Made by a program: the position numbers and the translations under genes. Of a stretch of 64,000 nt of DNA, positions 1 to 64,000 are shown piece by piece. Source of the stretch: Solirubrum puertoriconensis (GTDB lineage Bacteria; Bacteroidota; Bacteroidia; Cytophagales; Hymenobacteraceae); NCBI RefSeq assembly GCF_001483135.1, contig NZ_LNAL01000007.1, forward strand, positions 372,001 through 436,000, given 5' to 3'. The notes under the pieces were generated by a model that had not been told where the DNA came from, did no database searches, and saw only the letters and a program-made list of their open reading frames with translations. Numbering within the stretch: position 1 is the first letter of the stretch; each line of letters begins with the position of its first letter.

Positions 1-114
1 TGTTGCTGGTTGGCGTACTACTCATCCGCCGTTTCTAATTACTGCATGGTAAGCAGCTGCCAGCGGGTACCATGGTGCATGGCCGCAGGCTGCTCATTAC
101 CAAATTTCTCGCAT

Positions 115-837
115 ATGGCTTCTGCTTTCGACCCCATCGGGGCTGCGCTCAACGACTACCTAGGCGGCAACCAATCGGCATCTATTACGGTGCACAGCAG
201 CGTAGCCGAAGATGAGCCGCTGCCGGCTAAATACTTCTTCCGCACGCTTTGGGAAATGCCGGAGCTCGAACGCACGGCCCTCGACGAGTGCCGCGGTCGG
301 GTGCTCGACCTAGGTGCTGGTGCCGGTGCTCATGCGCTGGAGCTGCAGAACCGGGGTTTTCAGGTGAAAGCCATTGATGTATCGGTGGGGGCGGTGCAGG
401 TTATGCAACAGCGCGGCGTGCGTGAGGTTGCCTGCCACGACATCTTCGAGCTAACGGCCTCTGCCGAACGCTACGACACCCTGCTGATGCTGATGAACGG
501 CCTAGGTGTGGTGGGCACCCTCGAAGGGTTGGAGAAGTTCCTGAAGCTTGCCCACCAGTTGCTGGTGCCGGGCGGCCAGATATTGGCTACCAGCTCCGAT
601 ATCAGCTACATCTATGAAGACGAAGACGGCGCGCTCAACTTCAACCTCAACGGACCTTACTACGGCGAGGTGGAGTACCAAATGAGCTACAACCAGCAAA
701 CCGGCCCGCAGTTTAACTGGCTGTTCGCCGACCCTACCATCGTGCAGGATTACGCCGAAGAAGCCGGCTACGATGTGGAGTTTATCGACGAAGACGACCA
801 GCAACAATTTCTAGTGCGCCTCACCCGCCGCGGCTAA
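115..837 (+). CDS. Class I SAM-dependent methyltransferase
   Basis: Soluble protein of 240 residues. Motif I of the Rossmann-fold methyltransferases (VLDLGAGAGAH, residues 63-73) binds S-adenosylmethionine, and the acidic end of strand 2 is seen at Asp87 (FQVKAIDVS). The substrate cannot be told from sequence; many members act on small molecules. The frame is open back to the window start, with a TTG at 10 and an ATG at 46, but I prefer the ATG at 115 (MASAFDPIG) because the upstream residues are Cys-rich and unlike the family. The thioesterase gene follows 39 bp downstream on the same strand, so co-transcription is possible. The family is clear; the role is unknown. Confidence 0.85.
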   Translation: MASAFDPIGAALNDYLGGNQSASITVHSSVAEDEPLPAKYFFRTLWEMPELERTALDECRGRVLDLGAGAGAHALELQNRGFQVKAIDVSVGAVQVMQQRGVREVACHDIFELTASAERYDTLLMLMNGLGVVGTLEGLEKFLKLAHQLLVPGGQILATSSDISYIYEDEDGALNFNLNGPYYGEVEYQMSYNQQTGPQFNWLFADPTIVQDYAEEAGYDVEFIDEDDQQQFLVRLTRRG

Positions 838-876
838 GCCAAGGGCTTACCGTACCGGGGCTCTTACTTGCCTTAT

Positions 877-1332
877 ATGCAATACCACAAGCAATACCCC
901 ATTCGTTGGGCCGACCTCGACCCCAACGGCCACATGCGCCACTCGGCCTACAACGATTACGCTGCCCAACTGCGCCTCGATTTTCTGGAGGATGCTGGTT
1001 TTCCGCTGGCTAAGTTTGCCAAGCTGGGCATTGGCCCTATTCTGTTTCGCGAAGACACGCGTTTTCTCAAGGAAATCAGCCCGAACGAAACGATCAAGGT
1101 AGGTGCCGAACTGGCTGGCCTCAGCGCCGATGGCAGCCGCTGGCGCATCGTACATACCATCTACAAAGCCGATGGGCGCGAGTCGGCCATTATTACCGTC
1201 GATGGTGCCTGGCTCGATTTGCGCCAGCGCAAGCTTGCTACGCCACCAGCCGAGCTGGCCGAAGCCCTGAGCAAGCTCGATCGGCACAGCTCGTATGCCG
1301 AAATCGAGCGCAGCCCCAAAGCTGGTTCTTAG
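877..1332 (+). CDS. Acyl-CoA thioesterase, 4HBT hotdog family
   Basis: 151-residue hotdog-fold protein. The N-terminal signature WADLDPNGHMRHSAY (residues 11-25) matches the 4-hydroxybenzoyl-CoA thioesterase group, with Asp15 as the likely catalytic acid and His19 and Tyr25 at the usual family positions. These enzymes hydrolyse acyl-CoA thioesters, usually as dimers or tetramers in the cytoplasm. A TTG start at 868 would add three residues; the ATG at 877 is preferred. The stop overlaps the stop of the convergent DinB-like gene by four bases, so the two 3' ends share sequence. The physiological substrate is not deducible. Confidence 0.85.
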   Translation: MQYHKQYPIRWADLDPNGHMRHSAYNDYAAQLRLDFLEDAGFPLAKFAKLGIGPILFREDTRFLKEISPNETIKVGAELAGLSADGSRWRIVHTIYKADGRESAIITVDGAWLDLRQRKLATPPAELAEALSKLDRHSSYAEIERSPKAGS

Positions 1333-1883
1333 GCCACCGTCCGCAGCATTTTGCTGATGCGCCCCAGTTGTTGCTGATGGTGCAGCACGTGGTCGAGCAG
1401 AAAGTCGAGCGTCTGCTGAATGGTGAGCATGCCCACCCGCGGATGCTTGAAGATGGCGCGGTTTACAAGCTGATCGGGAAACTCGTTGAGTAGGTTTTCG
1501 AGCTGCCGGCGGCTGGCCATCCACTGCGCACGCATGTCGGCCAGCGCGGGCAAATCGGTGGCGGCCGCGGGCGTAAGCGCCGCCACCCGGCCCGGGGCCT
1601 TAAACTTGATGCCCGGCAAACGTAGCAACAGGCGCAGCAGTCCTGCCCGCAAACGCATACCTAGGGTGCCGTTGGTCAGCTGGCTTTGTTCGCGGAGCTT
1701 CTGCTGCAGGTACTGCCCAATAGCTGCCTCCGACGACAGCAAGTGATGCACCACGTGTGCCGCCGACCATTGCCCCGGCGCCGGTGCTTGGTAAGCTTGC
1801 TCGCCTAAGGATTCGGCCGCTCGCAGCAGCTTTTCGGTGGCGTGTTCGAGTTGCTCGAAGCGGAGGTGTAGGCGATGGTTCAT
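1329..1883 (-). CDS. DinB-like / DUF664-type four-helix protein
   Basis: 184 residues. The pattern GQWSAAHVVHHL (residues 37-48) and a late helix with DHVLHHQQQ resemble the DinB/YfiT four-helix bundle, in which three histidines coordinate a metal. Bacterial members include thiol-dependent transferases, but no substrate can be assigned. The ATG at 1883 (MNHRLHLRFEQLEH) is preferred to the frame's upstream TTG-type extension. The gene converges on the thioesterase with overlapping stops and is divergent from the membrane-protein gene that starts 65 bp away. Confidence 0.7.
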   Translation of the reverse strand: MNHRLHLRFEQLEHATEKLLRAAESLGEQAYQAPAPGQWSAAHVVHHLLSSEAAIGQYLQQKLREQSQLTNGTLGMRLRAGLLRLLLRLPGIKFKAPGRVAALTPAAATDLPALADMRAQWMASRRQLENLLNEFPDQLVNRAIFKHPRVGMLTIQQTLDFLLDHVLHHQQQLGRISKMLRTVA

Positions 1884-1947
1884 GCGGCAATCAAACAAGA
1901 AGGCAATACAGCAGGCATAATCAGTTTACCGCCCACCTTTGCGCTCA

Positions 1948-3348
1948 ATGTTACCGCATATTCCGCACTTATCCGAAGCGCACCGCCGCCTGCTGCCTGT
2001 GCTGGCTACGCTCCTGCTATACCTAGGATATTTGCCGTTTTCGGGGTACCAACACCTCTACCACGACGCGCTGCTGTACTGGTACATCGCAGTAGAGTTT
2101 CTGGAGCCGGGCCACCGCTTCAGCTTTTTGGCCTTCGATAACTCCTTACGAGGGTATTTGTGGCCGTTACTGCTACTGCCTGCAAGGGTAACTGCATTCT
2201 TTAGCGGCATTTCACCGTTGGTTTTTACCCGGCTAATGGGCGGATTGGTAGCTGCCGGGCTGTTTGGCTGGGCTGTGCCCGCGGTGTGGGCCAAATGCAG
2301 GCCCGATCATCCGGCAAGCGTGAAGGCGAAGCTGCTGTTTGTTGCCCTAGGGTTTGTGTTCTGGCGCGATTACTTCAACTTCCCGCTCACCGATTTTCCG
2401 GCTCTGCTGGCTCTGCTAGCGGCGTTGTGGCTGTTGTTGCAACCCGCGCCTCGTGGCTGGCAGATGCTATTAGCTGGCGCGCTGACAGGGGTTTGCCTCA
2501 ACCTCAGAGGGGTGTATGTAACGGCACTACCTGTTGTGCTGGTGTTGGCAATGTGGGGGCAGGGCGTTGGGCTAGGTAGGCGGGCTGTACGGGCTGGTTC
2601 GCTGGTACTAGGGCTGTGCGTTGTATTGGGGCCGCAGCTACTACTGAATGTGCGGCACTTCGGCGCCTACACGCCGCTCGTCCTGACGATGTACAGCCCC
2701 CGCGACGAGCACAACGCCTTGGTTGACAAGCTAGGCTGGAGCTTGGCCGTGCAGAAGTACGAAACCAACATAGGCCCGCAGCACCACGCCGCGCAGGTGC
2801 TCTACTTCGATCCGGCAGGCCAAGCCTTGCTCCGCCACCTAGGCCAAACCGAGTTTACCACAATAGGCAGTTACCTGCAAGCGGTGGGCTACCAACCAGC
2901 CACCGTAGCCGGCATCTATGCCCGGCATTTGGTTAGTGGCTTCGATGTGAAATACCCCACGCCGTACCTGCAGGAGTTACAGCCGATGCGCTGGGGCTAC
3001 CGATCAATCAATTTTGTTTTGCTGGCTTTAGGCTTGGCAGCCTTAACGATATGCGGGCTGCAAAAAAGACCCACAAAGCAGCAAACGTTGGTACTGGCAG
3101 CGGTGTCGTTGCCGTGCCTGGCCACAATACCCACCGCAATGGAGTGCCGCTACTTAATGCCGTTGCATCTGCTGCTGCTAGGTGCGGTTTGCTTCGAGGG
3201 GCACCAACTGTTAAGCTGGGTGCGCAGCAGCAACAAGCGGTGGCTGCTTTTAGCAGTATGCGTATTGATGCTGGTCGGGTTTGCTTTCGCCTTTGTTCGG
3301 CAGCTCGAGAGTAACCTCGCACGGCCCGGGCAGCAGATAACCGGGTAA
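1948..3348 (+). CDS. Multi-pass inner-membrane protein, GT-C glycosyltransferase-like
   Basis: 466-residue protein with about 11 hydrophobic helices spread over its length, for example near the starts LLPVLATLLLYLGYL and YLWPLLLLPARV, and a short hydrophilic C-terminus. The first periplasmic loop carries an acidic residue in HLYHDALLYW, and the helix count resembles membrane GT-C glycosyltransferases that use polyprenyl-phosphate sugars. I do not recognise a specific family, so that role is inference. An in-frame TTG lies nine bases upstream of the chosen ATG. A hairpin at 3353-3385 closes the gene. Confidence 0.7.
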   Translation: MLPHIPHLSEAHRRLLPVLATLLLYLGYLPFSGYQHLYHDALLYWYIAVEFLEPGHRFSFLAFDNSLRGYLWPLLLLPARVTAFFSGISPLVFTRLMGGLVAAGLFGWAVPAVWAKCRPDHPASVKAKLLFVALGFVFWRDYFNFPLTDFPALLALLAALWLLLQPAPRGWQMLLAGALTGVCLNLRGVYVTALPVVLVLAMWGQGVGLGRRAVRAGSLVLGLCVVLGPQLLLNVRHFGAYTPLVLTMYSPRDEHNALVDKLGWSLAVQKYETNIGPQHHAAQVLYFDPAGQALLRHLGQTEFTTIGSYLQAVGYQPATVAGIYARHLVSGFDVKYPTPYLQELQPMRWGYRSINFVLLALGLAALTICGLQKRPTKQQTLVLAAVSLPCLATIPTAMECRYLMPLHLLLLGAVCFEGHQLLSWVRSSNKRWLLLAVCVLMLVGFAFAFVRQLESNLARPGQQITG

Positions 3349-3352
3349 ACAC

Positions 3353-3385
3353 AAAAAGCCACCGGGGCAATCCGGTGGCTTTTGT
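3353..3385. terminator. Bidirectional intrinsic terminator
   Basis: Stem AAAAGCCACCGG / CCGGTGGCTTTT with a 6-nt loop. It lies between the convergent membrane-protein and pdhB genes and has T-runs on both strands, so it can serve both. Confidence 0.85.
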
Positions 3386-3414
3386 GATGATCAAAGAGCA
3401 ATTGGGCTCGTGGC

Positions 3415-4392: not shown

Positions 4393-4424
4393 GTAGATGT
4401 CAGGAAAGAAAAAGTCGGGTCAAT

Positions 4425-4454
4425 GAAAAAAGGCCGGCTCGCGAGGAACCGGCC
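4425..4454 (-). terminator. Hairpin with T-run upstream of pdhB
   Basis: On the minus strand GGCCGG...CCGGCC is followed by TTTTTT. It either ends the small-protein gene at 4520-4921 or sits in the pdhB leader, because a candidate -7 element lies at 4485-4492. Confidence 0.7.
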
Positions 4455-4484
4455 CGTAAAGCTACAATGATAGGCGGGAGTGGG

Positions 4485-4492
4485 CAAACGTA
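4485..4492 (-). promoter_or_regulatory. Candidate -7 element TACGTTTG
   Basis: Matches the Bacteroidota TAnnTTTG consensus on the minus strand, about 95 bp before pdhB. No TTG is found at the right -33 distance, so the call is weak. Confidence 0.35.
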
Positions 4493-4519
4493 GTTGCCTA
4501 AGGCCGACACATAATCCTA

Positions 4520-4921: not shown

Positions 4922-5001
4922 GCGACAGTTCTAGCTGTATGCTCGTCAGATGGTAGTACAAGTTCAACGCAAATCACCTTTGCGAATGAACATACTGTTG
5001 C

Positions 5002-6816
5002 CTACTGCCGCAGCGCCTCTACAAACGTTTTGCTACCGGCGTAGCTGCGGAACTCTAGGTCTTCCACTGCGCGCTGGGCGAAGGTGCGGTCGAGTTGCAC
5101 AGCGCGGCGCAGGTACTGGCCTACGTCGCCTTCGCGCTGAGCCCGGGCGGCGACAACGGCAAGGCAGTAATAGGCCATAGGATCATTGGGCTTGAGGTTG
5201 AGCGCTTCTTGGTAAATCTGCGCGGCGCCGTCGTAGTTCTCCTTGGTTAGGTAGATGAGGGCGCGGTTCATGACATTCTGGTACGACTTGTCGCTGTAGC
5301 TCAAGCTGCGGATGGCGTCATCAGTCTGCCCAATTTCGATTTCCAAGGCGGCTTTGTCGGCAAAGACTTTGTCGAGAATAGGCTTGGAGCCGCCTAGCTT
5401 AATGGCGTAATCGTAGTTCTGCAGGGCCTCCAGCCGGTCGCCGGCGCGGTGCCAGGCCGTGGCTACGTGGTAGAACATGGTAGCCGTAGGGTTGCGGTGC
5501 GCTGCCAGAGTAAAGTTGGTTGCTGCCCGGCGTTGGTAGGCGCGGCGCACTTTGTCGCTTACCTCTTTTTCGGAGCGTTCGAGCAGTACCACGGCTAGGT
5601 TGTGGTAGGCCTCCCAGCGGCCCGAAGTAGCTACGGCGGTTTCGTAGATGCGCTGCTTTTCGGCCAGCAACGGTGTTAGTGTGGCCGAATAGCGCAACTC
5701 CTCGGGCGTAAGGGCATCGGCTTCGAGCTCTTTTTCTACAATCTTCTTCGAAAGGATGTAAATCTCGGACTGCAGGCGCTGCGGAGCCGTGTAGCGCACG
5801 GCCACGGTGCCGAAGCGCATCACGGGGTACACGTACTGCTCGATGTAATCGAAGAACGACAGCGTATGCAGCTGCTTTTCCTTTTGGGCCCACGTGCCGC
5901 GCGAGTCGTTGATGATGCTCACCACCGAATCGATCTGCTCGGGCTGCAGGGCCGAAGCCTGCACTTTGCTCAGAAACAAATCCCAGCGGCGCCGGTAGGT
6001 CTGGGTTTCGAACTTAACCGAGCTCAGGGAGTTCAGGTACGAGTTGTTATCGAGCCGGCGTTTATAATAGCGCATCAGGGCCTGCACGCGCTTTTCGGGC
6101 AGGCGCGAATCGTGGGAGTCGAGCGAATCGGGCGAGTGGCCAGCCACGATCATCACCTTCTGGGTTTGCTGATTGGCTTCGATAAACTCTTCCAGGGCGG
6201 CAACGTTGGTGCCAAGGTAATTACGGATTGCGCTTTGGCCTTCATCGAAGAAGAAAGGCAACACGCGGGTGCCGCCGCCTTCCAAGCTGGCTTCTTCGGG
6301 CAGGTAGGTTACGCGCTCAACTTCGCGCACCACCAAGCGGCTGGGCAACACTACGCCGCGCGCTACCATCAGTTCCTTTCCGGCTTTCAGCACTTTGCCG
6401 CCTGGCTTGAGCCGGCGTACCTGCGGCATCGTTACCAACTGGCCAGGGTTTTTGCGCGGCTCGTAAGGAAATGAGATGGGCTTTTTGACAACAACGAAAT
6501 TGCGGTCTTGCTCGTCGTACACAAATTCGCCCACCAAAAAGCGCACGGTGCCGGCGGTGTCTTCGCGCAGGCCATTATCATAGCGGTAGCGCAGGGGCAG
6601 CTCGTACACGGCTCCCTTGTGCAGGTGCTTGGCCGGTACGCGTACTTCCAGCTCGGCCAGCACGTTTTCGCCGTTGGCCTCGAGTACGGGCGGGCGTACC
6701 TGAACTTGTTGACCCTCTTGCGCAACCCGCAACATGCGTGGCAGCGTACAAGCAGGCAGTGTAGCGGCCGTAACGACCGGAAGTAGGCGTAGAAGCGCGG
6801 CGCGCGAAACGTTCAT
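5002..6816 (-). CDS. Outer-membrane lipoprotein with OmpA-like and TPR regions
   Basis: 604 residues. The chosen ATG gives a lipoprotein signal MNVSRAALLRLLPVVTAATLPAC with lipidation at Cys23; the 20 residues of open frame upstream lack signal character. A beta-rich region (to about residue 200) is followed by an OmpA-like segment (LPFFFDEGQSAIRN and later VAGHSPDS...PEKRVQALM), which in true OmpA domains binds peptidoglycan. The C-terminal half contains tetratricopeptide repeats (WEAYHNLAVVLL, PTATMFYHVATAWHRAG, NDPMAYYCLAVVAA). It is probably a periplasm-facing scaffold. It resembles the architecture of PorE-like T9SS accessory proteins only loosely, so no symbol is given. Confidence 0.75.
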   Translation of the reverse strand: MNVSRAALLRLLPVVTAATLPACTLPRMLRVAQEGQQVQVRPPVLEANGENVLAELEVRVPAKHLHKGAVYELPLRYRYDNGLREDTAGTVRFLVGEFVYDEQDRNFVVVKKPISFPYEPRKNPGQLVTMPQVRRLKPGGKVLKAGKELMVARGVVLPSRLVVREVERVTYLPEEASLEGGGTRVLPFFFDEGQSAIRNYLGTNVAALEEFIEANQQTQKVMIVAGHSPDSLDSHDSRLPEKRVQALMRYYKRRLDNNSYLNSLSSVKFETQTYRRRWDLFLSKVQASALQPEQIDSVVSIINDSRGTWAQKEKQLHTLSFFDYIEQYVYPVMRFGTVAVRYTAPQRLQSEIYILSKKIVEKELEADALTPEELRYSATLTPLLAEKQRIYETAVATSGRWEAYHNLAVVLLERSEKEVSDKVRRAYQRRAATNFTLAAHRNPTATMFYHVATAWHRAGDRLEALQNYDYAIKLGGSKPILDKVFADKAALEIEIGQTDDAIRSLSYSDKSYQNVMNRALIYLTKENYDGAAQIYQEALNLKPNDPMAYYCLAVVAARAQREGDVGQYLRRAVQLDRTFAQRAVEDLEFRSYAGSKTFVEALRQ

Positions 6817-6905
6817 GCAGCTAAATTCAGACGGCAAAATCAGCACCCTTAACGCAATTAGCCTTTTTTTGGACATAGCATCAGCAAAATTTACTGCTGC
6901 TTTGC

Positions 6906-6934
6906 TTGACGCTTGGCTCGCCGCAAGTTATATT
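6906..6934 (+). promoter_or_regulatory. Candidate TTGACG-N17-TATATT promoter
   Basis: TTGACG at 6906-6911 and TATATT at 6929-6934 with a 17-bp spacer, 33 bp before the PspC gene. This is the classical sigma-70 arrangement rather than the usual Bacteroidota TAnnTTTG, so it may be chance or an alternative sigma site. Confidence 0.3.
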
Positions 6935-6966
6935 ATCGTCTGAACTGCCTTGATCATCACCCAGCT

Positions 6967-7185: not shown

Positions 7186-7229
7186 TCGGCAAAGCATGCA
7201 GGGCAATTAGGCCCTTGGTTCCATAGCAA

Positions 7230-7268: not shown

Positions 7269-7285
7269 CCGGCTGCCATGCCTAC

Positions 7286-8681: not shown

Positions 8682-8761
8682 AAGCGAGGTATGTTGTTGG
8701 TTGTTAGTTGACAAAGAATGGCTGTGCTGCTAAGCAATAAACCTAGCGCACACAGCGGCGC

Positions 8762-14634: not shown

Positions 14635-17181
14635 TTAACCGCCGAAATCGCCGCCGCCTAGGTTATCATCCTGCTGCGGCTGCTGTTGTTGCTCGCCACG
14701 GCCACGACCACGGCCGCGCTGCGGGCCACCCTCGCCGGGCGCTTGGCCGAAACGGTAGGTAAAGCCGATGAAGCCCACGCGGGTTTCGCGCTTGAACTGG
14801 TTTTCGCTGCTGAAGTTGGGGCCGCGGAACTTGATGTTAAACTCCTGGGTGTTAAACAAGTCCGATACGCGCAGCGTGATGGCGCCGCGGTCTTTCAGCA
14901 CGCTGTACTTAGCGCCGAGCTCGGTGGAGAAAATCTGGCCGAACGAGCCCTGCGTGGTAACGGTGCGCGAGCGGTAGAACGCCGACACCTGCAAATCGAG
15001 TGATTTGATGGGGGTGAATACCGAGTTCAGGCGGCCGGTGTAGGCGAAGTTCTTGTTGTCGAGCTCGGTGCCGGTACTGGCCGCAATTACGTTGCGGAAA
15101 GCCGAGCCGTTGAGCGACACGCGCCACCACTTAGCCAAAGGCTGCGCAAGCGAAGCCTCTACGCCGTAGGAGCGGCTGTTTGAGATGTTTTGCGGGCGCG
15201 TGGTGGTGATGCCCGTTTCGGCGTCGAGCTCGCGCAGGCGCTGCACCACGCCCGTGGAGTAGCGGTAGAACGCCGTGCCCGTAAGGCTGGTGCGGCCCTT
15301 AAACCACTGGTAACCCAGCTCCGAAGCGTTGATGTACTCGGGCAGCAAGTAGGGGTTGCCTTGCTGGTAGTTCAGCGGGTCGGAGTAATCAATGAAGGGG
15401 TTAAGGCTGTTGACATCGGGGCGGTTGAGGCGGCGCGAGTAGCTGGCCTGTACCCGCTGCGAGGGCGAAACGTCGTATGCCAACGTGAGCGAAGGAAACA
15501 GCCCTAGGTAACTGCGGCGGAACTGGGCCGGGAACGGCTGGCCACCGGGCGCGGGTGCCGTATTGTACTGACGGCCTTCGGCGTTGGTTTGCTCGGCGCG
15601 CAGGCCGGCCTGGTAGTTCAGCTTGCCGCGCACGTTTTGGTACGTGAGGTAAGCCGCCTGGATGTATTCGTCGTACTTAAAGCGGTTGGAGCGGCTGGGG
15701 TCGAAGGTGAGCGGCAGCACATCCGATAGGCCCAGCAAGAACTGAAAATCGGCATCGGTGCGGCGCATGGTGCTCTTCAGGCCAGCATCGAGGCGGCCTT
15801 TTTCACCTAGGGGGTGCACGTAGTCGATCTGGACTGAGCCTTGGTCGAGGCGGTTGTCGCTGCTCTGCTGCTGCAGCTGCGGCTGCGCGGGCAGGCGGCG
15901 GACTTGCAGCGAGTCGAGGCGCGAATCGGTGGTGTTTTCGCTGCGGATGGGCGTAAACACGGCCATGGCCGTCAGCTCGCGGCGCTTTTGACCGGCCCAG
16001 GTACGGCGGTAGTCCAAAGTAAAGTCGGTAGAGCGGCTGCGGCCATCCGATTCGTTGCGGCGAATAAACGAGCCGCGGTCGGCGCCGGTGGGGGCGTAGG
16101 TGCGGTTGGCGTTCAGGGTTTCAAACGACTCTGAGGTGTTCAGGCGCGGCTGCACCGACAGCGTAATAGTTTGCTGCGGCGTAATGGTGTAATCGAACCC
16201 AAAGCGGCCGCTGTGCGAAATGCCGGTACGGTCGCCGCGGCCGCGCTGCGTGAGCAGAATGGTGGAGTCGCCTTCGAGGCGGCCCCGCAGCAGGCTTACC
16301 TGATCGAGGTTGCGGCGCGTGAAACGGTTGTCGTAGCGGGCGTCGTAGTTGCCGAAGAAGTTGAACTTGCCTTGGCGCAGGTTCAGGGCCACCGAGCCGT
16401 TGTACTTGTCGCGGGTGCCGGCGTTCAGCGTAACAGAGCCGTTGAGGCCGTTGCGCTGCTCTTTTTTCAGCACAATGTTCAGGATACCACCCGAGCCTTC
16501 GGCATCGTAGCGAGCCGAGGGGTTCGTTACGATTTCTACGCTCTCAATTTGCGAGGCTGGAATCTGATCGAGGTTGACGGCGCGGCCGCCACCAGCAGCG
16601 CCGGTGGGTTTGCCGTCGATGTAGATGGTTACGTTTTGCGAGCCGCGCAGCGACACCGAGCCGTTCTGGTCCACGTTTACCGAGGGCACGTTCTGCAGCA
16701 CGTCCACGGCGGTGCCGCCCACGGTGCTCAGGTCCTTCGATACGTTGATGACCTTCTTGTCGAGGTTGTCCTGCACAATGGCCCGTTCGCCCGTTACGGT
16801 TACGCCCTTCAGCTGCTGCGTGGTGGAGCGCAGGCGCAACTGACCTAGGGCCAACGAAGCCTGCTCGGCCGACAGCGTAATGGGCCGGCGGGCTGGGCGG
16901 TAGCCCAACTGCGTTACGCGCAGCGAGTAATTGCCAAACGGTACGCCCTCGATTTTGAACGCGCCGTTGTCGGCTGTTTGGGCACCCGTCACCAGGGTCG
17001 AGTCCTGGGCCCGAAGCAGCACCACGTTGGCGAAAGGCACCGGCTGGCCGTTGGAGCCATCGAGCAAAGTGCCCGTTACCGAGCCGGTGGTTTGAGCCCA
17101 CACGCTCAGCGGCAACAGCAATAAAATGACGAGCAACAGCCTAGGCAGCTGTTGCGAAGAAGAAGTAAAAGCTGAACTCAT
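14635..17181 (-). CDS. TonB-dependent-receptor-like outer-membrane barrel, paralogue 1
   Basis: 848 residues. Order: signal peptide to about residue 29 (LLLVILLLLPLSVWAQ), carboxypeptidase-regulatory-like beta-sandwich (SVTGTLLDGSNGQPVPFANV), plug domain (KGVTVTGERAIVQDNLDKK; LRGSQNVTIYIDGKP), then a long beta-barrel. Such proteins move ligands across the outer membrane, often with TonB, but the ligand here is unknown and no SusD partner is adjacent. The C-terminus does not end in the usual aromatic residue but in a Gly/Arg/Gln-rich tail closing with GGGDFGG. It is a paralogue of 19000-21474. Confidence 0.9.
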   Translation of the reverse strand: MSSAFTSSSQQLPRLLLVILLLLPLSVWAQTTGSVTGTLLDGSNGQPVPFANVVLLRAQDSTLVTGAQTADNGAFKIEGVPFGNYSLRVTQLGYRPARRPITLSAEQASLALGQLRLRSTTQQLKGVTVTGERAIVQDNLDKKVINVSKDLSTVGGTAVDVLQNVPSVNVDQNGSVSLRGSQNVTIYIDGKPTGAAGGGRAVNLDQIPASQIESVEIVTNPSARYDAEGSGGILNIVLKKEQRNGLNGSVTLNAGTRDKYNGSVALNLRQGKFNFFGNYDARYDNRFTRRNLDQVSLLRGRLEGDSTILLTQRGRGDRTGISHSGRFGFDYTITPQQTITLSVQPRLNTSESFETLNANRTYAPTGADRGSFIRRNESDGRSRSTDFTLDYRRTWAGQKRRELTAMAVFTPIRSENTTDSRLDSLQVRRLPAQPQLQQQSSDNRLDQGSVQIDYVHPLGEKGRLDAGLKSTMRRTDADFQFLLGLSDVLPLTFDPSRSNRFKYDEYIQAAYLTYQNVRGKLNYQAGLRAEQTNAEGRQYNTAPAPGGQPFPAQFRRSYLGLFPSLTLAYDVSPSQRVQASYSRRLNRPDVNSLNPFIDYSDPLNYQQGNPYLLPEYINASELGYQWFKGRTSLTGTAFYRYSTGVVQRLRELDAETGITTTRPQNISNSRSYGVEASLAQPLAKWWRVSLNGSAFRNVIAASTGTELDNKNFAYTGRLNSVFTPIKSLDLQVSAFYRSRTVTTQGSFGQIFSTELGAKYSVLKDRGAITLRVSDLFNTQEFNIKFRGPNFSSENQFKRETRVGFIGFTYRFGQAPGEGGPQRGRGRGRGEQQQQPQQDDNLGGGDFGG

Positions 17182-55401: not shown

Positions 55402-55671
55402 AGAATAAGGGTGGGTAGTGGTAAGGCGCTAGTGGAGCAGCAGGGGTAAAATGGAACCGAAAAAGCTCGACAAGGTGTTGAACTCGGCCGCAAAGATGGA
55501 TGAATAATCTATCCTCACTACGAAACAGCGCCTAGGGCAAGTTCAACACCTAGGTATGTAAAGGAGTTTCGACGTTCCGAAAGTATTGCCGATCAGTACC
55601 CTGTCAACGATTAAAATGATGGCGACGACGCCAAAAAGAATATATAGTAGCGCGCAACCAACTGCGTTTGC
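55402..55671. other. Divergent region upstream of topA
   Basis: 350-bp gap between topA and the receptor gene. It has three CCTAGG sites (55331 lies in topA; 55531 and 55549 here) and a separated 12-bp inverted repeat AGGTGTTGAACT (55473-55484) / AGTTCAACACCT (55540-55551). No clear topA promoter was found. Confidence 0.45.
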
Positions 55672-55679
55672 TACTTTTG
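55672..55679 (+). promoter_or_regulatory. Candidate -7 element TACTTTTG of chemosensory operon
   Basis: TAnnTTTG match 76 bp before the receptor ATG at 55755; a transcript starting near 55686 also rules out the upstream in-frame start. No -33 TTG at standard spacing. Confidence 0.45.
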
Positions 55680-55754
55680 CTCGAACTGCCCACTACCCCC
55701 AGTTGGCAGTCACCTGCCTTCACCGCGTTTTTTTGCGCTTCGATCCTTCCTCCT

Positions 55755-58700
55755 ATGGCCTCCGGTAAGAACAGCAAACCTGCTACGAACCTTGCGCCTC
55801 TCGACAACGACGCTGATTTGCCAGTTGATGCTGACATGAGCAAGTCTGATCCTGTAGAACGCGTGAGTTCCGACCTAACGCGTAAACGTGGCGCTGCTCG
55901 TGGCAGCTCTGCGGGCACACAGGACCCCGATTACGTAAACGAGCAGCTGAACCGAGTTCTGTACGCCCTCGACGCCTTTAAGAAGGGCGACATCTCAGTG
56001 CGTTTGACTAAACAGAACGACGACATCTTCGCCGAAATCGCCGAAGCCTACAACTCAATGGTTGAGATGATCGGCGGGGTAGGTGGCGAGGTATCGCGCA
56101 TCTCGAAAGTAGCGGGGGTAGAAGGTAACCTGAAGGCGCGCGCCTCCGGCGAAAACGCTACGGGTTTCTGGCGCGACATGATTAACAACATCAACGGCTT
56201 GGTTGACTCCATTGCCGTACCGGTGTTGGAGGTAGGCAAGGTACTGAAGAACATCTCGCGCGGTAACCTCGACGAGTCGTTCCAGATTCCGGTATCGGGC
56301 GACTTTAAGTTGATGGCCGAAACCATCAACAAAACCATCGACAACCTGAACGTATTCGCCAGCGAAGTAACCCGCGTGGCGCAGGAGGTAGGTACCGAAG
56401 GTCGCCTAGGTGGCCAGGCATCGGTACCGAACGTGGGTGGTGTGTGGAAGGAACTGACCGACAACGTAAACACGATGGCCTCGAACCTGACCTCTCAGGT
56501 GCGTGACATTGCCAACGTAGCCACCGCGGTAGCCCGCGGCGACCTGTCGCAGAAGATTACGGTAAACGTAAAGGGCGAGCTGCTCCAACTCAAGGAGAAC
56601 CTCAACCAGATGGTGGACTCGCTGAACCTGTTTGCCGGCGAGGTAACCCGCGTAGCACAAGAAGTAGGTACGGAGGGTAAGCTCGGTGGCCAAGCTGTGG
56701 TGCCAGGCGTTGGCGGCGTTTGGAAAGACCTCACTGACAACGTAAACAACATGGCCGCCAACTTGACGAGCCAGGTACGTGACATTGCCAACGTAGCTAC
56801 CGCCGTAGCAAAAGGCGACTTGTCGCAGAAAATCACGGTTGATGTTAAAGGCGAGCTGTTGCAGCTCAAGATGAACCTCAACCAGATGGTGGACTCGCTC
56901 AACCTCTTCGCTGGCGAAGTAACCCGCGTGGCGCAGGAAGTGGGTACCGAAGGCCGCCTAGGTGGCCAGGCCAACGTGCCGAGTGTAGCAGGTGTGTGGA
57001 AAGACCTGACGGACAACGTGAACACGATGGCCGCCAACCTGACCTCGCAGGTGCGTGACATTGCTAACGTAGCAACGGCCGTAGCGAAAGGCGACCTGAC
57101 GCAAAAGATTACGGTAGACGTAAAGGGCGAGCTGCTCCAACTGAAGCAGAACCTCAACCAGATGGTGGACTCGCTCAACCTGTTTGCTGGCGAGGTAACC
57201 CGCGTAGCACTTGAAGTAGGTACAGAAGGTAAACTCGGCGGCCAGGCTGTGGTGCCAGGCGTTGGCGGCGTTTGGAAAGAACTCACCGACAACGTAAACA
57301 ACATGGCATCGAACCTGACTTCTCAGGTGCGCGACATTGCCAACGTGGCTACCGCCGTAGCCCGCGGCGACTTGTCGCAGAAGATGACCGTGAACGTGAA
57401 GGGCGAAATTCTGGAACTCAAGAACATCTTGAACCAGATGGTGGACTCGCTCAACATTTTCGGTGACGAAGTAACCCGCGTAGCCCGCGAAGTAGGTACC
57501 GAGGGTAAGCTGGGCGGCCAAGCCGTGGTGCCCCGTGTTGGTGGTACCTGGAAAGAGCTGACCGACAACGTAAACACCATGGCCTCGAACCTTACGAGCC
57601 AGGTGCGCGACATCGCGAACGTTGCAACCGCGGTAGCAAAAGGTGATCTGACCCAGAAAATCACGGTTGATGTTAAGGGCGAGCTGCTGGATCTGAAGAA
57701 CATTCTGAACCAGATGGTGGACTCGCTGAACATCTTCGCCGGCGAGGTAACCCGCGTAGCCCGCGAAGTAGGTACCGAAGGTATCCTAGGTGGTCAGGCC
57801 AACGTGCCGAACGTAGGCGGTGTATGGAAAGACCTCACCGACAACGTGAATACGATGGCCTCGAACCTGACTTCGCAGGTACGCGACATTGCCAACGTAG
57901 CAACGGCCGTAGCCCGCGGCGACTTGAGCCAGAAAATCACTGTAAATGTGAAAGGTGAGCTGCTCCAACTCAAGGAGAACCTCAACCAGATGGTGGACTC
58001 GCTGAACACGTTCGGTGACGAAGTAACCCGTGTGGCGCGTGAGGTAGGTACGGAAGGTAAACTGGGCGGTCAGGCAGTAGTGCCGAACGTTCGGGGTACC
58101 TGGAAGGAACTGACCGACAACGTAAATACCATGGCTGCGTCGCTGACCTCGCAGGTACGCGACATTGCGAACGTAACCACGGCCGTAGCCCGAGGCGACT
58201 TGAGCCAGAAGGTATCGGTTGACGTTCGGGGCGAGATGTTGGAGCTAAAAGACAACATCAACCGAATGGTGGACTCGCTGAACGTTTTTGCCGGCGAGGT
58301 AACCCGTGTGGCACAAGAAGTAGGTACCGAAGGCCGCCTAGGTGGCCAGGCCAACGTGCCGAACGTGAGCGGGGTATGGAAGGACCTTACCGACAACGTA
58401 AACCGCATGGCCGCCAACCTTACCACACAGGTACGTGGTATCGTGAAGGTAGTAACCGGTGTATCGCAAGGTGACCTTACCCAGAAGCTGACCCTGGAAG
58501 CCAAAGGCGAGCTGGCCGACCTGGCCGACACCATCAACCGAATGGTGGACGACCTGAACCGCCTGGCGCAAGAAGTAAGCCGCGTGGCCCGCGTAGCCGG
58601 GGTAGAGGGCAAGCTTACCGAGCGTGCCATGGTAACCGAGGTGAGTGGTTCGTGGAAAGACATTGTAGACACGCTAAACGACCTGATCGAGTCGATTGCC

Positions 58701-60200
58701 TCGCCGGTACTGGAAGTGTCGCGCGTAGTACGTGCGGTGTCTGAAGGTGACCTGACGCAGAAGGTAGAAGTACCGACTGCCGGTGACATTTACGCCATGG
58801 CAATGGCCTTGAACACGGCCGTTGAAAGCTTGAACGAACTGCTCGCTGAAATCAACGACTCGTCGTTGGTAGTGGGGGCTTCGTCGGAAGAAATGGCGCA
58901 GAAGGGCCTAGAGATGAGCCGCGTAACAGTTGACGTATCGCTTGCCATGCAACAGATGGCAGAAGGTGCGCAAAACCAAGCTATGAAGACCGACCAGGCC
59001 TTCAAGCTGATCGAGGAAATCATGCAGGCCACGAAGGAAACCGCCAACAAGGCCGACGTGGTAAACAAAGCCGCCATCCTAGGTGAGCAAACCTCGCAGC
59101 TGGGTCTGAAGACGGTAGCAGAAGTGGTGAAGAACATGGAGGAAATCTCCAGCGCTTCGGCCCAAACGGCTAAAACCATTGATGTACTCTCGGTTCGCTC
59201 GCAGGACATCAGCAAGTCGCTGGGTGTAATCACCGACATTGCCGCTCAAACCAACTTGCTGGCTCTGAACGCAGCTATCGAAGCCGCCCGTGCTGGTGAA
59301 GCCGGCCGTGGTTTTGCGGTAGTAGCCGAGGAAATACGCAAGCTGGCAGAAGGTTCGCGCAAATCGGCCAACGAAATTGCTACGCTGGTAGAGGACGTAC
59401 GAAAAGACACCGCCTCGGCCGCAACCGCTATTTCGACCATGGAGGGCCGAGTACTGAAAGGGAAAAACGCAACGTTCGAGGCCAGCTCGGCCTTTAAGAA
59501 TATTGCCACCTCTTCGGGCGAAATTCTGCGCACCTCGCGAGACATTCTCACGGCAACAGAGATTCAGAAGACCTCGATTGGCGACGTAGTTAAGTATGTG
59601 GAGGAAGTAGTAGCCATTGCCGAGCAAACGGCTTCGGGTACGCAGCAGGTAGCTAGCACGGCCAAGCAGCTTTCAAGTTCCATGTCGGAGCTGACGGCTT
59701 CGAGCCAGAAGCTTACTGATATTGCCGACGACCTGCAAGTAGGTCTCTCGGCCTTCCAGCTGATGGACCATTTGGCTGAGGATGTGTACTACGAGCCCGC
59801 TCCGCCCGTACGCAGCAGCTTGCGGCGTATGCAGCAGGCTCACATGCCCACGCGCGAGGAATTAGCGGCTCGACAGGTGCGCACGCCTAACCGCTCAGTA
59901 GCGGCAGCAGCTGCTCGGACGGTAGCTAACGGCGGCACACCTGTAACTCCGCCAAGCCGCCCCACGCGTCCAGTACCCATGCCGCGTCCGCAGTCGAACG
60001 GTACGCCCGAGCCAGCTCGTGCTAGCCGTAAGCCAGCCGCTGCTGCCGAGCAAGCTCCGGCTTCTCCGGCACCGCGCAAAGCTCCGGTGCGCCGCCCCGC
60101 TCCGCCGGTTACCGGCGAGGCGCAAGCACCAGCCAACCAGGCTCCGAGCAACGAAGGTGCTGACGCTCCAAAGGCTGCCTCGAAACGCAAAAACAAATAA
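55755..60200 (+). CDS. Soluble poly-HAMP methyl-accepting chemotaxis protein
   Basis: 1481 residues, no signal peptide or membrane helix. Order: a disordered N-terminus (1-60); a half-unit; a divergent HAMP unit (~107-198); eight near-identical 92-residue units (~199-934), each of the form EVTRVA-EVGTEG-LGGQA-VP-V-G-WK-LTDNVN-MA; a second divergent unit (935-1026); an MCP signalling helix pair with hairpin tip [20 protein letters not shown] (about 1160); then a Pro/Ala-rich tail (1334-1481). HAMP arrays this long occur in fungal group III histidine kinases (Nik1/BOS1). The receptor is cytoplasmic and should signal to CheA through CheW. The ATG at 55755 follows the promoter and is preferred to 55668. 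Confidence 0.93.
56350..58557 (+). repeat. Eight tandem 276-bp repeats coding HAMP units
   Basis: Each unit is ~276 bp (92 codons) starting at the codons for N(V/L/I/T)F(A/G). Units match each other at most bases as well as at the protein level, including stretches such as the ATGGTGGACTCGCTGAAC boundary. Unit types alternate: GRLGG (1, 3, 8), GKLGG (2, 4, 5, 7), GILGG (6). The repeats make long spurious ORFs on the minus strand. Confidence 0.92.
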
Positions 60201-60219
60201 TTGACCGCAGGGATAAGAT

Positions 60220-60249
60220 CTGGGAGTGCACATACATGAGCACTCCCAG
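60220..60249 (+). terminator. Hairpin between receptor and cheW
   Basis: 10-bp arms CTGGGAGTGC / GCACTCCCAG with a 10-nt loop and no T-run. It may act as a weak terminator or RNA-stability element that makes CheW scarcer than the receptor. Confidence 0.5.
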
Positions 60250-60281
60250 ACAAATCCGTTCTGTTCAGCTATTACTAGCGC

Positions 60282-60818
60282 ATGACTGAATATTCGGCTG
60301 CCGCAGAAAAGAAGTCACCGAGGCCCGAAGTGCCTGTTCAGCTCATCGTTTTCCGCCTAGGTAACGAAGAGTATGGCATTCGCATCGAGCAGGTGAAGGA
60401 GGTAACGGTGACCCCCGAAATTGCCCGCATGCCCAAAACGCCACGTTTCGTTAAGGGCATTGCCAATCTTCGCGGCGACATAATTGCCATCATCGATCTG
60501 GAGGAGCGGTTTCGGTTACGTCGCGCCGATCAGCCGCTACCACTCCAAACCTTCACGTTGGCCATTGAGGCGCGCGATTACACCATTGGCATTCTGGTGC
60601 GCGAAGTGCCGCAACCAATTTCAATTCCTGCCTCGAGCATCGAGCAGGCACCTGATTTCATTCAGGACATCAACATTCACGACAAGTACATCGAGGGAAT
60701 CGCACGGGTTGACAACCGCATAATCATCGTGTTGGACATGCTCAAGTTGCTCACTCCCGGGGAAATCATGCAGCTACGCCCCAAAGCAACATCTTCTGCT
60801 ACCGCTGAGCGTAAATAG
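60282..60818 (+). CDS. cheW: CheW-like coupling protein
   Basis: 178 residues. The CheW fold is marked by VQLIVFRLGNEEYGIRIEQVKEV (19-41), MPKTPRFVKGIANLRGDIIAIIDLEERF and KYIEGIARVDNRIIIVLDMLKLL. It bridges the receptor's tip and CheA's P5 domain. The first ~15 residues are an extra charged tail. It lies 81 bp after the receptor gene and 48 bp before cheY, so it belongs to the same operon. Confidence 0.93.
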   Translation: MTEYSAAAEKKSPRPEVPVQLIVFRLGNEEYGIRIEQVKEVTVTPEIARMPKTPRFVKGIANLRGDIIAIIDLEERFRLRRADQPLPLQTFTLAIEARDYTIGILVREVPQPISIPASSIEQAPDFIQDINIHDKYIEGIARVDNRIIIVLDMLKLLTPGEIMQLRPKATSSATAERK

Positions 60819-60866
60819 CCCTGGTTTCGTCCTAATCTTCCCATCGAGTTCCTTTAATCCGATCCT

Positions 60867-61268
60867 ATGAAAAACCGCATCCTCATCGTAGATGACTCGT
60901 TCTACATGCGCACGATGCTGAAGAATATGCTGACCGACGCCGGTTACGACGTGGTTGGTGAGGCTGCCAATGGGCAGCAAGCGCGTGAGCTGGCTTCGGA
61001 AACGAAACCCGATTTGATTACACTCGATGTTATCCTGCCCGACAATACTGGTTTGGAGGTACTTAAGGATATTCGTCAGGAGCTGTCCGATGTCAAGATC
61101 GTAATGTGCAGCGCCGTAGGCCAAGAGGTCATTGTAAACGAAGCCTTGGAGAGCGGCGCAATAGCCTACATCGTAAAGCCTTTCTCTGAAGACAAAGTGC
61201 TAGAAATTGTCAGCGGAGCCCTGCAACAGGCCGGCAGTGAGTCGGATGCTTCCGAAGCCGCCGAATAA
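60867..61268 (+). CDS. cheY: CheY-type single-domain response regulator
   Basis: 133 residues. Acidic pocket Asp9-Asp10 in ILIVDDSFYMRTML, phospho-acceptor Asp54 in LITLDVILPDNTG, Ser82 in VMCSAVGQ and Lys104 in YIVKPFSEDK. All residues for phosphorylation by CheA are present. No output domain; a short acidic tail (ESDASEAAE). In flagellated bacteria CheY acts on the motor; here, with no flagellar genes, the target is unknown (gliding, pili or other). Confidence 0.93.
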   Translation: MKNRILIVDDSFYMRTMLKNMLTDAGYDVVGEAANGQQARELASETKPDLITLDVILPDNTGLEVLKDIRQELSDVKIVMCSAVGQEVIVNEALESGAIAYIVKPFSEDKVLEIVSGALQQAGSESDASEAAE

Positions 61269-61349
61269 CTCCAGCTCTGTTTGTGCTTGCTAGGTAGTTG
61301 ACCTACGGCTGCCACCCAGTCAAGCTCACGACTTTCTTCTGCTTTCGTT

Positions 61350-62468
61350 TTGCTTAGTTCTGCCGTTGTACATGCTCCTCTAACCATCTTGCTCGGCGAT
61401 ATGCCGGGTTTGGTGCGCTTGGCTGTGTCCAAGGTGCTGCGGTCGGACAAGGATGTACGCATTGTTGCCAGTACCTCGGGAGCCGAAGACTTGCTTGCAC
61501 AAACACGCACGTTACGGCCCGACCTGGTAATTGTGGGCGAGCAAGCAGCGGCGGTGCTCGAGAAACTCGCTGCCTGTCACCGCGGGCCGGTATTGTTGTA
61601 CAGCACTCAGGAGCGCCGAACGAGCTTACTGCGCGAATCAACGAAGTGGGGCGTGTACGATTTGTTCGGGCCAATGCCTGCTCTTTCGCACCCCGATCAT
61701 GCGTTTGTGCGCCGGGAGTTGCTAAGAAAAGTGCATCGCTCGCGGCGTGTGCTTACCACTTACGTAGGCCGTACAGCCAATAAACCGGAGGCGGGAGCCG
61801 AGGTATTAGCCATTCGCCGCACCAACGTTGCTCCGCCAAGAGGCTTGATTGTACTGGGTGGCTCAACGGGCGGTGCCGCAGCGGTAGAGCAAATTGTACG
61901 GCAGTTACAGCCGGGTTTGCGCCATGCTATTGTGGTGGCGGTGCACTTACCGGCGTCGTTTACCCCGCTGCTAGTAGAGCGGCTGCGGAAAGCCTCCGCG
62001 CTGCCTGTAATTGCTGGCATGGCTGGTACGCGCCTAGAGCCGGGCAAGATTGTGGTCGTACCCGGCGGTTGTCATTGGATGATCAAAGGGAGCCTGCCAC
62101 AGCAGCTATGGCTAGCTCCGGCAACCGAAAAAGCCCCCGCTCTCGATGAGCCTAGCATCGATTTGCTGCTGAGTTCCGCTGCGCGAGCTGCTGGCCGCCA
62201 TACGCTTGGGGTAGTTCTTACTGGGCTCGGCAAAGATGGTACCGTAGGCGCCCAAGTGGTGCGCCAGCTGGGCGGTATCATTGTGGCTCAAGACGAGCAA
62301 TCGTCGGCTGTATTTGGCATGCCTAAGTCAGTTATTCGGGCTGGTCATGCATCAGTGGTGCTAAGCCTGCCCGAAGTGCCTCGTTTCATCAATGCCCAAA
62401 CGCAGCTGATGCGCCCTTGGCCATTGGTTTCCCGTTCAAATTCCGTTTCCCGATCCTACACACGATGA
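61350..62468 (+). CDS. cheB: CheB-like protein-glutamate methylesterase with degenerate receiver
   Basis: 372 residues. The C-terminal methylesterase has its triad: Ser172 in VLGGSTGGAAAVEQI, His199 in VVAVHLPAS, Asp296 in VLTGLGKDGTVG. The N-terminal receiver-like domain (LTILLGDMPGLVRLAVSKVL; RPDLVIVGEQ) lacks the phospho-acceptor Asp, expected near residues 62-63 where Val-Gly stand, so it should not be controlled by phosphorylation. No ATG precedes the receiver; the start is a TTG at 61350. Its stop overlaps the cheA ATG by four bases (ATGA), so they are coupled. CheR is not visible in the window. Confidence 0.88.
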   Translation: MLSSAVVHAPLTILLGDMPGLVRLAVSKVLRSDKDVRIVASTSGAEDLLAQTRTLRPDLVIVGEQAAAVLEKLAACHRGPVLLYSTQERRTSLLRESTKWGVYDLFGPMPALSHPDHAFVRRELLRKVHRSRRVLTTYVGRTANKPEAGAEVLAIRRTNVAPPRGLIVLGGSTGGAAAVEQIVRQLQPGLRHAIVVAVHLPASFTPLLVERLRKASALPVIAGMAGTRLEPGKIVVVPGGCHWMIKGSLPQQLWLAPATEKAPALDEPSIDLLLSSAARAAGRHTLGVVLTGLGKDGTVGAQVVRQLGGIIVAQDEQSSAVFGMPKSVIRAGHASVVLSLPEVPRFINAQTQLMRPWPLVSRSNSVSRSYTR

Positions 62469-64000
62469 AATCGCGCGAGCAGGAATACCGGGAATTGTTT
62501 ATGGCTGAAGCCTTAGAGGCTTACGACGCCATGAGCCAGCACATTTCTGTGCTGGAGAAGCGACCCGACGATGAGGCTGCGTTACATGAGCTGTTCCGTT
62601 TGATGCACAACCTCAAGGCCAACGCCCGTGCCATTGGCTTTGCCGAAATTGGCGAGGTTGCTCACCGCATGGAAACGATCTTCGGAGAAATCCGGAGCAA
62701 ACAACGCATTTTCGCGGGCTCACTGGTGCCCGTACTGTTTGCCGGCGTCGATGCCATCGGTGAAATGATCCGGGCCGTGGGGGCCAACCAAACCCTGCCC
62801 AATAGCTCGGTGCTGCTGGAAAACCTCGACCGCGTGATGCGCGGCGAGGAGCCTTTGCTGGATTCGGCACAAGCGGCTCCGTCGGACGAGGATGCAAACC
62901 GTAAGCTGGAGCTTTCGGACTTGGTTTACATCCCCATCAAGAAGCTCGACCACCTCCTCAACCTAGTAGGGGAGTTGATCATTGACCGCGACCGGGTTCT
63001 TACCCTCAGCCAAGAGATTGGCAACCTAGGTCTTTCGAACGTAGCCGCCCACCTGAGCCGCCTGGCCGACGACCTGCAGTATTCGGTGATGGATGCGCGG
63101 TTGGTAGGCGTGGGCACGCTGTTCAACAAGTTTCCGAGGGTGGTGCGTGATGTTGCCACGGCCGAGCAAAAGCAGGTTGAATTGACCATTAGCGGGCAGG
63201 ACATTCAGATTGACCGCAACATTCTGCAAATCATAACCGATGCCTTGCTGCACTTGGTGCGAAACGCCATTGGTCACGGCATCGAAACACCTGAGGAGCG
63301 CACCCGTGCGGGCAAATCGCCGCTGGGGCACTTGACCCTCTCGGCGCAAACCGAGCGCGACGACGTATTGATTCGCATCATCGACGATGGGCGCGGCATT
63401 GACGTGGAGCGCGTGCGGCGCAAAGCTGTTGCGCGCGGTCAGCTGCCAGCCGACGTTGCTGCCCGTTTAACCGATGCCGAGGTATACAGCCTCATGTTTG
63501 AGGCCGGATTCTCCACTGCCGAACAGGTAACGGAAATTTCGGGCCGGGGTGTAGGGCTTGATGTAGTGAAGCTGGCCATTGACTCCCTAGGTGGCCAGGT
63601 GCGTGTCGACTCGCAGATGGGGCAGGGTACCACTTTTACCCTCGTACTGCCTACTTCCATCGCGGTAAAAGGTGCGTTGCTATTCCAGCTTGAAGAGCAT
63701 TCGTACGCGCTGCCACTAATGCACACCGATTCGGTGGTGTCGTTGCGGCCCGAGCAGCTGCACGCCGTAGGCGGTATGTTGCTGGCCAAAGTGCAAGAAG
63801 AACACATTCCGGTAGTAAAGCTGGCCGAGCTGCTCGACGATTCCGATGAGCCCCTGCAGCCCGCCGACCGCGAAGCCCTGATGGGGCGCCAGGATATTAT
63901 CATCACCAGCTACAATGGTCGTAAGCTGGGCCTGATTGTCGACCAGTTTCTGCGCCAGCAGGACATTGTAATTAAACCCGTGAGCCAGCCGCTCGACATG
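62465..64000 (+). CDS. cheA: Chemotaxis histidine kinase CheA (cut by window end)
   Basis: 512 residues are visible; the 3' end is missing. P1/HPt domain ~1-105 with His48 in FRLMHNLKANARAIGF (Ala replaces the usual Gly of H-x-x-K-G). No P2 CheY-docking domain: a short linker of about 40 residues leads to P3 dimerisation (LVYIPIKKLDHLLNLVGELI). P4 ATPase has LLHLVRNAIGHGIE, IIDDGRGID and ISGRGVGLDVVKLAIDSLGG. P5 (CheW-like) starts near VKGALLFQLEEHSYALPL and runs to the edge. Receives signal from the poly-HAMP receptor and phosphorylates CheY. Confidence 0.93.
   Translation, partial: MKSREQEYRELFMAEALEAYDAMSQHISVLEKRPDDEAALHELFRLMHNLKANARAIGFAEIGEVAHRMETIFGEIRSKQRIFAGSLVPVLFAGVDAIGEMIRAVGANQTLPNSSVLLENLDRVMRGEEPLLDSAQAAPSDEDANRKLELSDLVYIPIKKLDHLLNLVGELIIDRDRVLTLSQEIGNLGLSNVAAHLSRLADDLQYSVMDARLVGVGTLFNKFPRVVRDVATAEQKQVELTISGQDIQIDRNILQIITDALLHLVRNAIGHGIETPEERTRAGKSPLGHLTLSAQTERDDVLIRIIDDGRGIDVERVRRKAVARGQLPADVAARLTDAEVYSLMFEAGFSTAEQVTEISGRGVGLDVVKLAIDSLGGQVRVDSQMGQGTTFTLVLPTSIAVKGALLFQLEEHSYALPLMHTDSVVSLRPEQLHAVGGMLLAKVQEEHIPVVKLAELLDDSDEPLQPADREALMGRQDIIITSYNGRKLGLIVDQFLRQQDIVIKPVSQPLDM

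Follow-up and report, generated by a model that had tools for sequence, protein, structure and literature searches.

The stretch analysed here (the window) comprises 64,000 nucleotides of the genome of Solirubrum puertoriconensis (G000; 4,804,721 bases in 8 contigs). The element in question is a short word with the core CCTAGG, which is spread over the whole window, in genes and between them. An earlier note on this DNA had described CCTAGG as a highly iterated palindrome, favoured as six bases of DNA rather than through the choice of a codon, and had pointed to a poly-HAMP gene in which this preference can be followed from repeat to repeat. The features of the window are the following.

1 to 64000, both strands: 87 CCTAGG cores of a dispersed, iterated word, with 46 copies of CCTAGGT on the plus strand and 46 on the minus strand
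2346 to 2351, no strand assigned: core without an A before or a T after it, one of five such cores in the window
Starts at 17140, 37377, 47079 and 55531: the remaining four cores without an A before or a T after them
55668 to 60200, plus strand: open reading frame of 1510 amino acids, labelled poly-HAMP in the earlier note; its GKLGG units at 56676, 57228, 57504 and 58056 lack the word
56405 to 56410, plus strand: core in a GRLGG unit (CGC-CTA-GGT) of the poly-HAMP gene
56957 to 56962, plus strand: core in a GRLGG unit (CGC-CTA-GGT) of the poly-HAMP gene
57785 to 57790, plus strand: core in a GILGG unit (ATC-CTA-GGT) of the poly-HAMP gene
58337 to 58342, plus strand: core in a GRLGG unit (CGC-CTA-GGT) of the poly-HAMP gene

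The 87 cores in the window compare with a mean of 13.3 and a maximum of 23 in 100 dinucleotide-preserving shuffles, and under Markov models of orders 2 and 3, which predict 13.6 and 20.2 copies, CCTAGG had the highest z of all hexamers in the window. At order 4, which the earlier note had suggested for a count over the genome, 68.7 copies are expected and the excess is small, because the 5-mers of the word are themselves inflated by the same sites. The iteration extends to the genome as a whole, as had been anticipated: it holds 6,212 copies of CCTAGG, compared to 136 of the control GGATCC, which is the same word read backwards. CCTAGGT was found 1,346 times in 1.084 Mb of G000, a density of 1.24 per kb or about one copy per 800 letters. 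In two stretches of 620 and 424 kb its counts on the two strands were 392 and 376, and 250 and 272, respectively, showing no strand bias. Chi is likewise a short, iterated, species-specific oriented word, and it is oriented with replication; a polarity of the Chi type was rejected for CCTAGGT on these strand counts. Regular spacing was rejected as well, since the gaps between cores are over-dispersed (coefficient of variation 1.10 and 1.41, the latter partly due to a prophage-bearing island described below).

To place the cores relative to genes, genes in 464 kb of G000 were predicted with a simple caller (82-84% coding). Of the 427 in-gene cores, 388 read C-CTA-GG and 39 read CCT-AGG, in line with the frame noted earlier for the window. 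So uneven a frame is a point for codon usage or composition as the source of the word. However, the cores are denser between genes (1.88 per kb) than within them (1.12 per kb), which indicates that the word is favoured as DNA and not through codon bias. In the 338 called genes, CTA was the Leu codon before Gly in 388 of 602 cases where the preceding codon ends in C, and in 60 of 554 where it does not; in other contexts CTA makes up 3-9% of Leu codons. The poly-HAMP gene behaves in the same way, as the earlier note had observed, with CTA-GGT in its four GRLGG or GILGG units and CTC or CTG in its four GKLGG units. Synonymous codon shuffling within genes (n = 30) gave 49.7 cores where 427 were observed. 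The near-words CCCAGG and CCTGGG, on the other hand, are depleted in genes (284 versus 446 expected by codon shuffling). Finally, the 220 kb around rpoB contain 264 cores in G000 and 281 and 274 in its congeners G004 and G007, both also rich in the word. The same stretch of the sister G006, which like G005 is a congener with low counts, has largely the same gene order and is about 82% identical where aligned (129 kb), and it contains 7. Codon usage, composition or an assembly artefact as the explanation can therefore be practically dismissed.

The preference for a word at the DNA level thus stood up, but the palindrome proposed in the earlier note is not its unit. In the window, 82 of the 87 cores have an A before or a T after them, and 10 have both. 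Among the intergenic cores of G000, 341 of 376 carry an A before or a T after, and both bases flank 30, compared to 91.5 expected if the two sides were independent. When G000 and G004 are compared, the silent T of the Gly codon GGT is the same in both at 179 of 201 sites that lack the opposite A, and at 3 of 20 sites that have it; for control GGT codons the numbers were 65 of 207 and 760 of 2478 (p = 3.9e-12, each site counted once). The T is kept where no opposite A exists and not where one is present. Each site is therefore a single asymmetric 7-mer, CCTAGGT, which may lie in either orientation. The flanks of the T-oriented word show a weaker preference for G and C before it and for G and C after it (each 0.45-0.49), and the oriented consensus is roughly (G)(C/G)CCTAGGT(G)(C).

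The word is also conserved. Noncoding identity was 93-97% at the six core bases, 87% at the T and 74-86% at the neighbouring positions, with a baseline of 83.1%. The exact 7-mer was conserved at 483 of 653 sites, compared to a fraction of 0.473 for random 7-mers. Where the outer C occupies a silent codon position, G000 and G004 agree on it at 336 of 346 sites (controls 45 of 57, 45 of 57 and 1926 of 2459; p = 6.9e-22, each site counted once). The conservation of core, T and outer C together shows that the whole word is protected. Such joint conservation in noncoding DNA would also fit a site bound by a protein that organises the chromosome, takes part in repair or binds DNA in some other role, with weak selection for each copy, as would the lack of strand bias and the broad spread over the examined stretches. 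We return to this explanation with the relatives of S. puertoriconensis.

Gains and losses were counted once per site over G000, G004 and G007, which are about 88.7% identical in the 220 kb around rpoB. In the context C-Leu-GG, CTA in one genome and CTG in the other two was found at 17 sites, compared to 7 sites with CTG in all three; in other contexts the numbers were 156 and 1104 (p = 1.1e-10, each site counted once). Two CTA of three were seen at 30 sites in the context versus 89 with three CTA, and at 47 versus 22 elsewhere. This contrast in losses is an upper estimate, since part of what counts as loss in the controls must reflect parallel gain. For gains by transversion, from CTC to CTA (0 of 7 sites in context, 30 of 475 elsewhere), the numbers are too small. 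Gains were clearly above expectation solely from CCCAGG/CCTGGG (18 of 127 versus 3.7), though the outer bases offered little opportunity for gain, and routes of loss other than the return to these two words ran at 0 to 0.38 of the trinucleotide expectation, partly for coding reasons.

A sequence-specific mutation or repair bias, similar to very-short-patch repair and turning CCCAGG/CCTGGG into CCTAGG, would account for CTG to CTA gains that are strongly raised in this context only and for the depletion of CCCAGG/CCTGGG in genes. It would also suit the 25 sites that are shared by the three genomes and are one base off in G006, as all of them differ at the central two bases (15 transitions, 10 transversions). 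In contrast, it leaves the protection of the outer bases and of the T unexplained. Moreover, C-CTG without a following GG is no hotspot (56 of 1203 comparisons, in which unchanged sites are counted repeatedly), and the repair enzyme Vsr (PF03852) is found in just 3 of the 13 high genomes, that is, those with more than 1,000 copies of CCTAGG among 204 genomes of Hymenobacteraceae. We therefore consider such a bias very improbable as the cause. Its two specific forms, Dcm-like deamination of CCWGG and Vsr repair, were rejected on the C-CTG comparisons and on the distribution of the enzyme, respectively. Across the 204 genomes, a Vsr-type endonuclease was found in 16 of 16 genomes of the group g5, in 43 of 50 of g6 and in 2 of 8 of the genus of the window (g1).

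The word is not evenly distributed. Intergenic density was 3.04 per kb between convergent genes, 2.04 between tandem and 1.56 between divergent genes, and some intergenic hairpins carry a copy in each arm. Neighbouring copies in inverted orientation, at a distance of 12-60 bp, form 22 pairs; 12 of the pairs lie between genes, and in three of the intergenic ones the stem has 20-22 matching bases. Near rpoB, inverted pairs also recur at exactly 32 bases from start to start (4, 5 and 2 cases in G000, G004 and G007), and these are probably in part orthologous across the three genomes. Conversely, the word is scarce in unshared DNA. Those 1-kb windows of contig C8 of G000 that could not be aligned to G004 contain 20 words in 48 kb, where 61.5 would be expected at the rate of the core; the shared part holds 634 in 495 kb. 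On contig C7, where the surrounding full bins hold 23-34 cores, two adjoining bins of 20 kb hold 5 and 3. Of eight proteins scanned from this core-poor stretch, one matches a phage terminase and one a portal protein (in both libraries). The island, outside the window, covers about 38 kb (G000:C7:295349-333344; L046 and L047), with a GC content of 0.52-0.53 in two large gaps and the terminase and portal genes. When L047, a 20-kb stretch inside it, was mapped to seven relatives, three of the seven gave one short match each. The scarcity may mean no more than that such DNA arrived too recently to have gained the word.

The word is not a property of the genus. Three of the eight genomes of g1 are high (5,325-6,212 CCTAGG) and five are low (123-249), and other lineages of the family use other words on the same core. 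Below the 13 high genomes the next highest count is 888. A quick tree of RpoB and RpoC covered 40 chosen genomes, among them 12 of the 13 high genomes (G129 is missing), and on it at least four changes are needed to account for the high state. The ratio of CCTAGGT to CCTAGG was 0.94-0.96 in the clade of the window, 1.47 in G030, 1.09-1.14 in G036 and G123, 0.72-0.74 in G088 and G104 and 0.09 in G072. Further words were first seen in 20-kb samples around rpoB and then counted genome-wide (low genomes were sampled over at most 20 kb each, except G006, so that further words may have escaped notice). The samples revealed GGCCTAG in G041, G137 and G043, and CCCTAGC in G101, G045 and G122. Genome-wide, GGCCTAG occurs 7,410 times in G041, 7,051 in G137, 6,353 in G043 and 3,984 in the unsampled G129, as well as 1,238-2,585 times in G072, G088, G036, G123, G104, G045 and G122, with fewer than 1,000 copies in each of the other 193 genomes. 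CCCTAGC is found 3,913 times in G045, 2,916 in G122, 2,053 in G101, 2,046 in G036, 2,005 in G123, 1,197 in G088 and 1,161 in G072, and fewer than 1,000 times in each of the other 197. CTACCCC is over-represented in the samples of G044 (11 versus 2.0) and G075 (16 versus 2.7), and CTACCCC/CCTACCCC in these rpoB stretches (L091 and L106) is perhaps a further dialect without the CTAG core. A few more words of similar strength appeared in the 20-kb samples, for instance CGGTTTCC in G084. The open-licence literature, which leaves out most subscription papers and every bioRxiv preprint, yielded no account of these words. CCTAGG turned up in two papers solely through the title of a cited work; one further paper, in its available part, lists GCCTAGGC as a palindrome of unknown effect.

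A selected protein-binding site alone leaves unexplained why the word changes between close lineages. The scarcity in prophage and unshared DNA could result from recent arrival alone and does not discriminate. We regard the binding site as an unlikely explanation, albeit one to be taken seriously.

The earlier note had likened the word to HIP1 (GCGATCGC), the highly iterated palindrome (HIP) of cyanobacteria, and had proposed a search for a cognate methyltransferase. The likeness to HIP1 and the alternate HIPs held for density, for the spread in and between genes and for the sporadic replacement by other words (PMC4390886; here and below, statements on cited papers refer to the available parts of their texts). 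It did not hold for the palindromic unit, and within the two methyltransferase families searched no cognate enzyme is evident. On a HIP-type explanation, an orphan methyltransferase would recognise the word, and methylation-directed mismatch repair would create and keep the sites. The similar density, the sporadic lineage-specific words and the palindromic core speak for it, and each cyanobacterial genome with such a word is reported to have a methyltransferase able to modify it (Elhai 2015; PMC4390886). Cyanobacterial HIPs are palindromic, whereas the iterated unit here is asymmetric, with G030 as a possible exception. In addition, a search of two families revealed no methyltransferase common to the 13 high genomes: C5 enzymes (PF00145) are present in 4 of 13 and N6/N4 enzymes (PF01555) in 5 of 13. 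Neither family was detected in five of the 13 (G004, G036, G104, G123 and G129), a search that did not extend to other methyltransferase families and is thus incomplete. Overall, we think it doubtful that the word is of the HIP type. If it were, sister genomes with more than 5,000 and about 200 copies would offer a direct way to find the factor that builds the word.

In the stretches studied, the word is kept whole, in one orientation per site, and regained, and it would mark the lineage's own core DNA. The reading that we favour, and to which we would give an even chance, is that of a putative self tag working like a DNA uptake sequence (DUS), with dialects. A protein would recognise the word and favour DNA carrying it, most likely at the uptake of free DNA, which would be followed by recombination. 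Alleles with the word would then spread by molecular drive, by selection for conspecific DNA or by both, and the receptor would determine the dialect. Such machinery would have to work without pili. A pilus-independent route has been proposed for Riemerella anatipestifer, whose transformation genes include ComEC, DprA and YifB and whose transformation requires ComEC, DprA and outer-membrane proteins; the available part of that paper names type IV pili a single time, with reference to Vibrio (PMC8459023). RecA and a YifB/ComM-like open frame are present in the stretches studied here. The latter, an open frame with a YifB/ComM-like ATP-binding motif that lies near 720 kb of contig C8 in G000, has 361 codons in G000 and 518 in both G004 and G007, and the G000 copy may be interrupted or misassembled.

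Five of the eight features of uptake sequences that we considered are seen for CCTAGGT. It is the most over-represented word of its length, at nearly one copy per kb; it is oriented and non-palindromic, with a firm core and weaker flanks, if shorter than the known ones; it is more conserved than the surrounding DNA, with no extra divergence of the flanks in genes; it is scarce in horizontally acquired DNA; and it has clade-specific dialects that share a core. No pilus ATPase was detected with 9 candidates scored per genome, and we do not class CCTAGGT as a member of the uptake sequences. The DUS of Neisseriaceae and the uptake signal sequences (USS) of Pasteurellaceae likewise occur about once per kb, as oriented words that are conserved above average DNA and absent or scarce in recently acquired DNA (PMC3630211, PMC2397512). 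Eight dialects of DUS that share the core CTG are described for the Neisseriaceae; quoted counts run from 943 to 5,918 copies per genome, and inverted DUS pairs occur in every genome with DUS (PMC3630211). The shared traits include clade variants around a short core (CTG in DUS, CCTAG here) and a density that is highest between convergent genes. Some hairpins here have the word in both arms, as has been described for DUS, with an uneven excess of inverted pairs among the genomes (see below). Known DUS and USS use type IV pili, whereas here no pilus ATPase was found, uptake is putative and the phylum is another. Nearer relatives in the latter respect are the putative uptake words of Riemerella and Flavobacterium, which also belong to the Bacteroidota. 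R. columbina prefers its own DNA, and A/T-rich candidate words have been listed with their function left open (PMC7965970). Unlike the words described here, those were picked by raw frequency and, in the available part of that paper, come without dialects.

Several observations weigh against a self tag. Loss to CCCAGG/CCTGGG is hardly below the trinucleotide expectation (30 versus 37.6). Where genomes differ at a site, its distance from the word is similar to that between random 7-mers and their counterparts, and thus nothing shows that sites arrive by recombination. Flanks in coding DNA are not more divergent than average (0.88 versus 0.887), while DUS flanks are, and recombination has been reported for DUS (PMC2397512). 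Pairs in inverted orientation no more than 60 bp apart show only a modest excess: in the orders +-, -+, ++ and --, close pairs numbered 24, 21, 11 and 15 in G000, 22, 8, 6 and 9 in G004, and 7, 7, 0 and 5 in G007, so that the excess is modest in G004, little in G000 and absent in G007. Known uptake sequences measure 9-12 bases; the word described here is firm over 7 bases, and its core is more symmetric, being palindromic. G030 may even use a palindromic 8-mer instead (8746 CCTAGGT to 5949 CCTAGG). With respect to the machinery, no match to the ATPase of type IV pili and type II secretion (PF00437) was obtained in the 13 high genomes with 9 candidates scored per genome, which makes a ComP-type uptake route unlikely. 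In this search 76 of the 204 genomes had a match, 7 of them above the curated cut-off, and all 14 control genomes matched. In the stretches studied (22.6% of G000), DprA was not found with short sequence motifs, and a loose pattern for ComEC gave one match, in G004, which we take for chance.

For the family as a whole we suggest, more tentatively and at somewhat below an even chance, that the Hymenobacteraceae possess their own pilus-independent uptake-sequence system, with at least four dialects, built on a CCTA(G) core and switching from one lineage to its neighbour; this would be the third group with self tags. If so, genomic self tags would be added for the Bacteroidota, a phylum in which bacteria had been reported to prefer their own DNA but no word was known. 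The presence of several dialects among close relatives would provide replicated natural experiments, and the system would point to a pilus-independent, sequence-specific receptor.

Other words show the opposite behaviour. In the genes of the 464 kb of G000, compared to codon shuffling, words with GATC are avoided (GATCGC 1 versus 233, GATCCC 3 versus 123, GATCAC 13 versus 186), and GAGACC likewise (24 versus 146). This depletion suggests restriction avoidance. Many genomes of the group g4 are nearly free of GGATCC, with 0-10 copies, and others of the group contain between tens and 325, an avoidance of another palindrome that differs among relatives.

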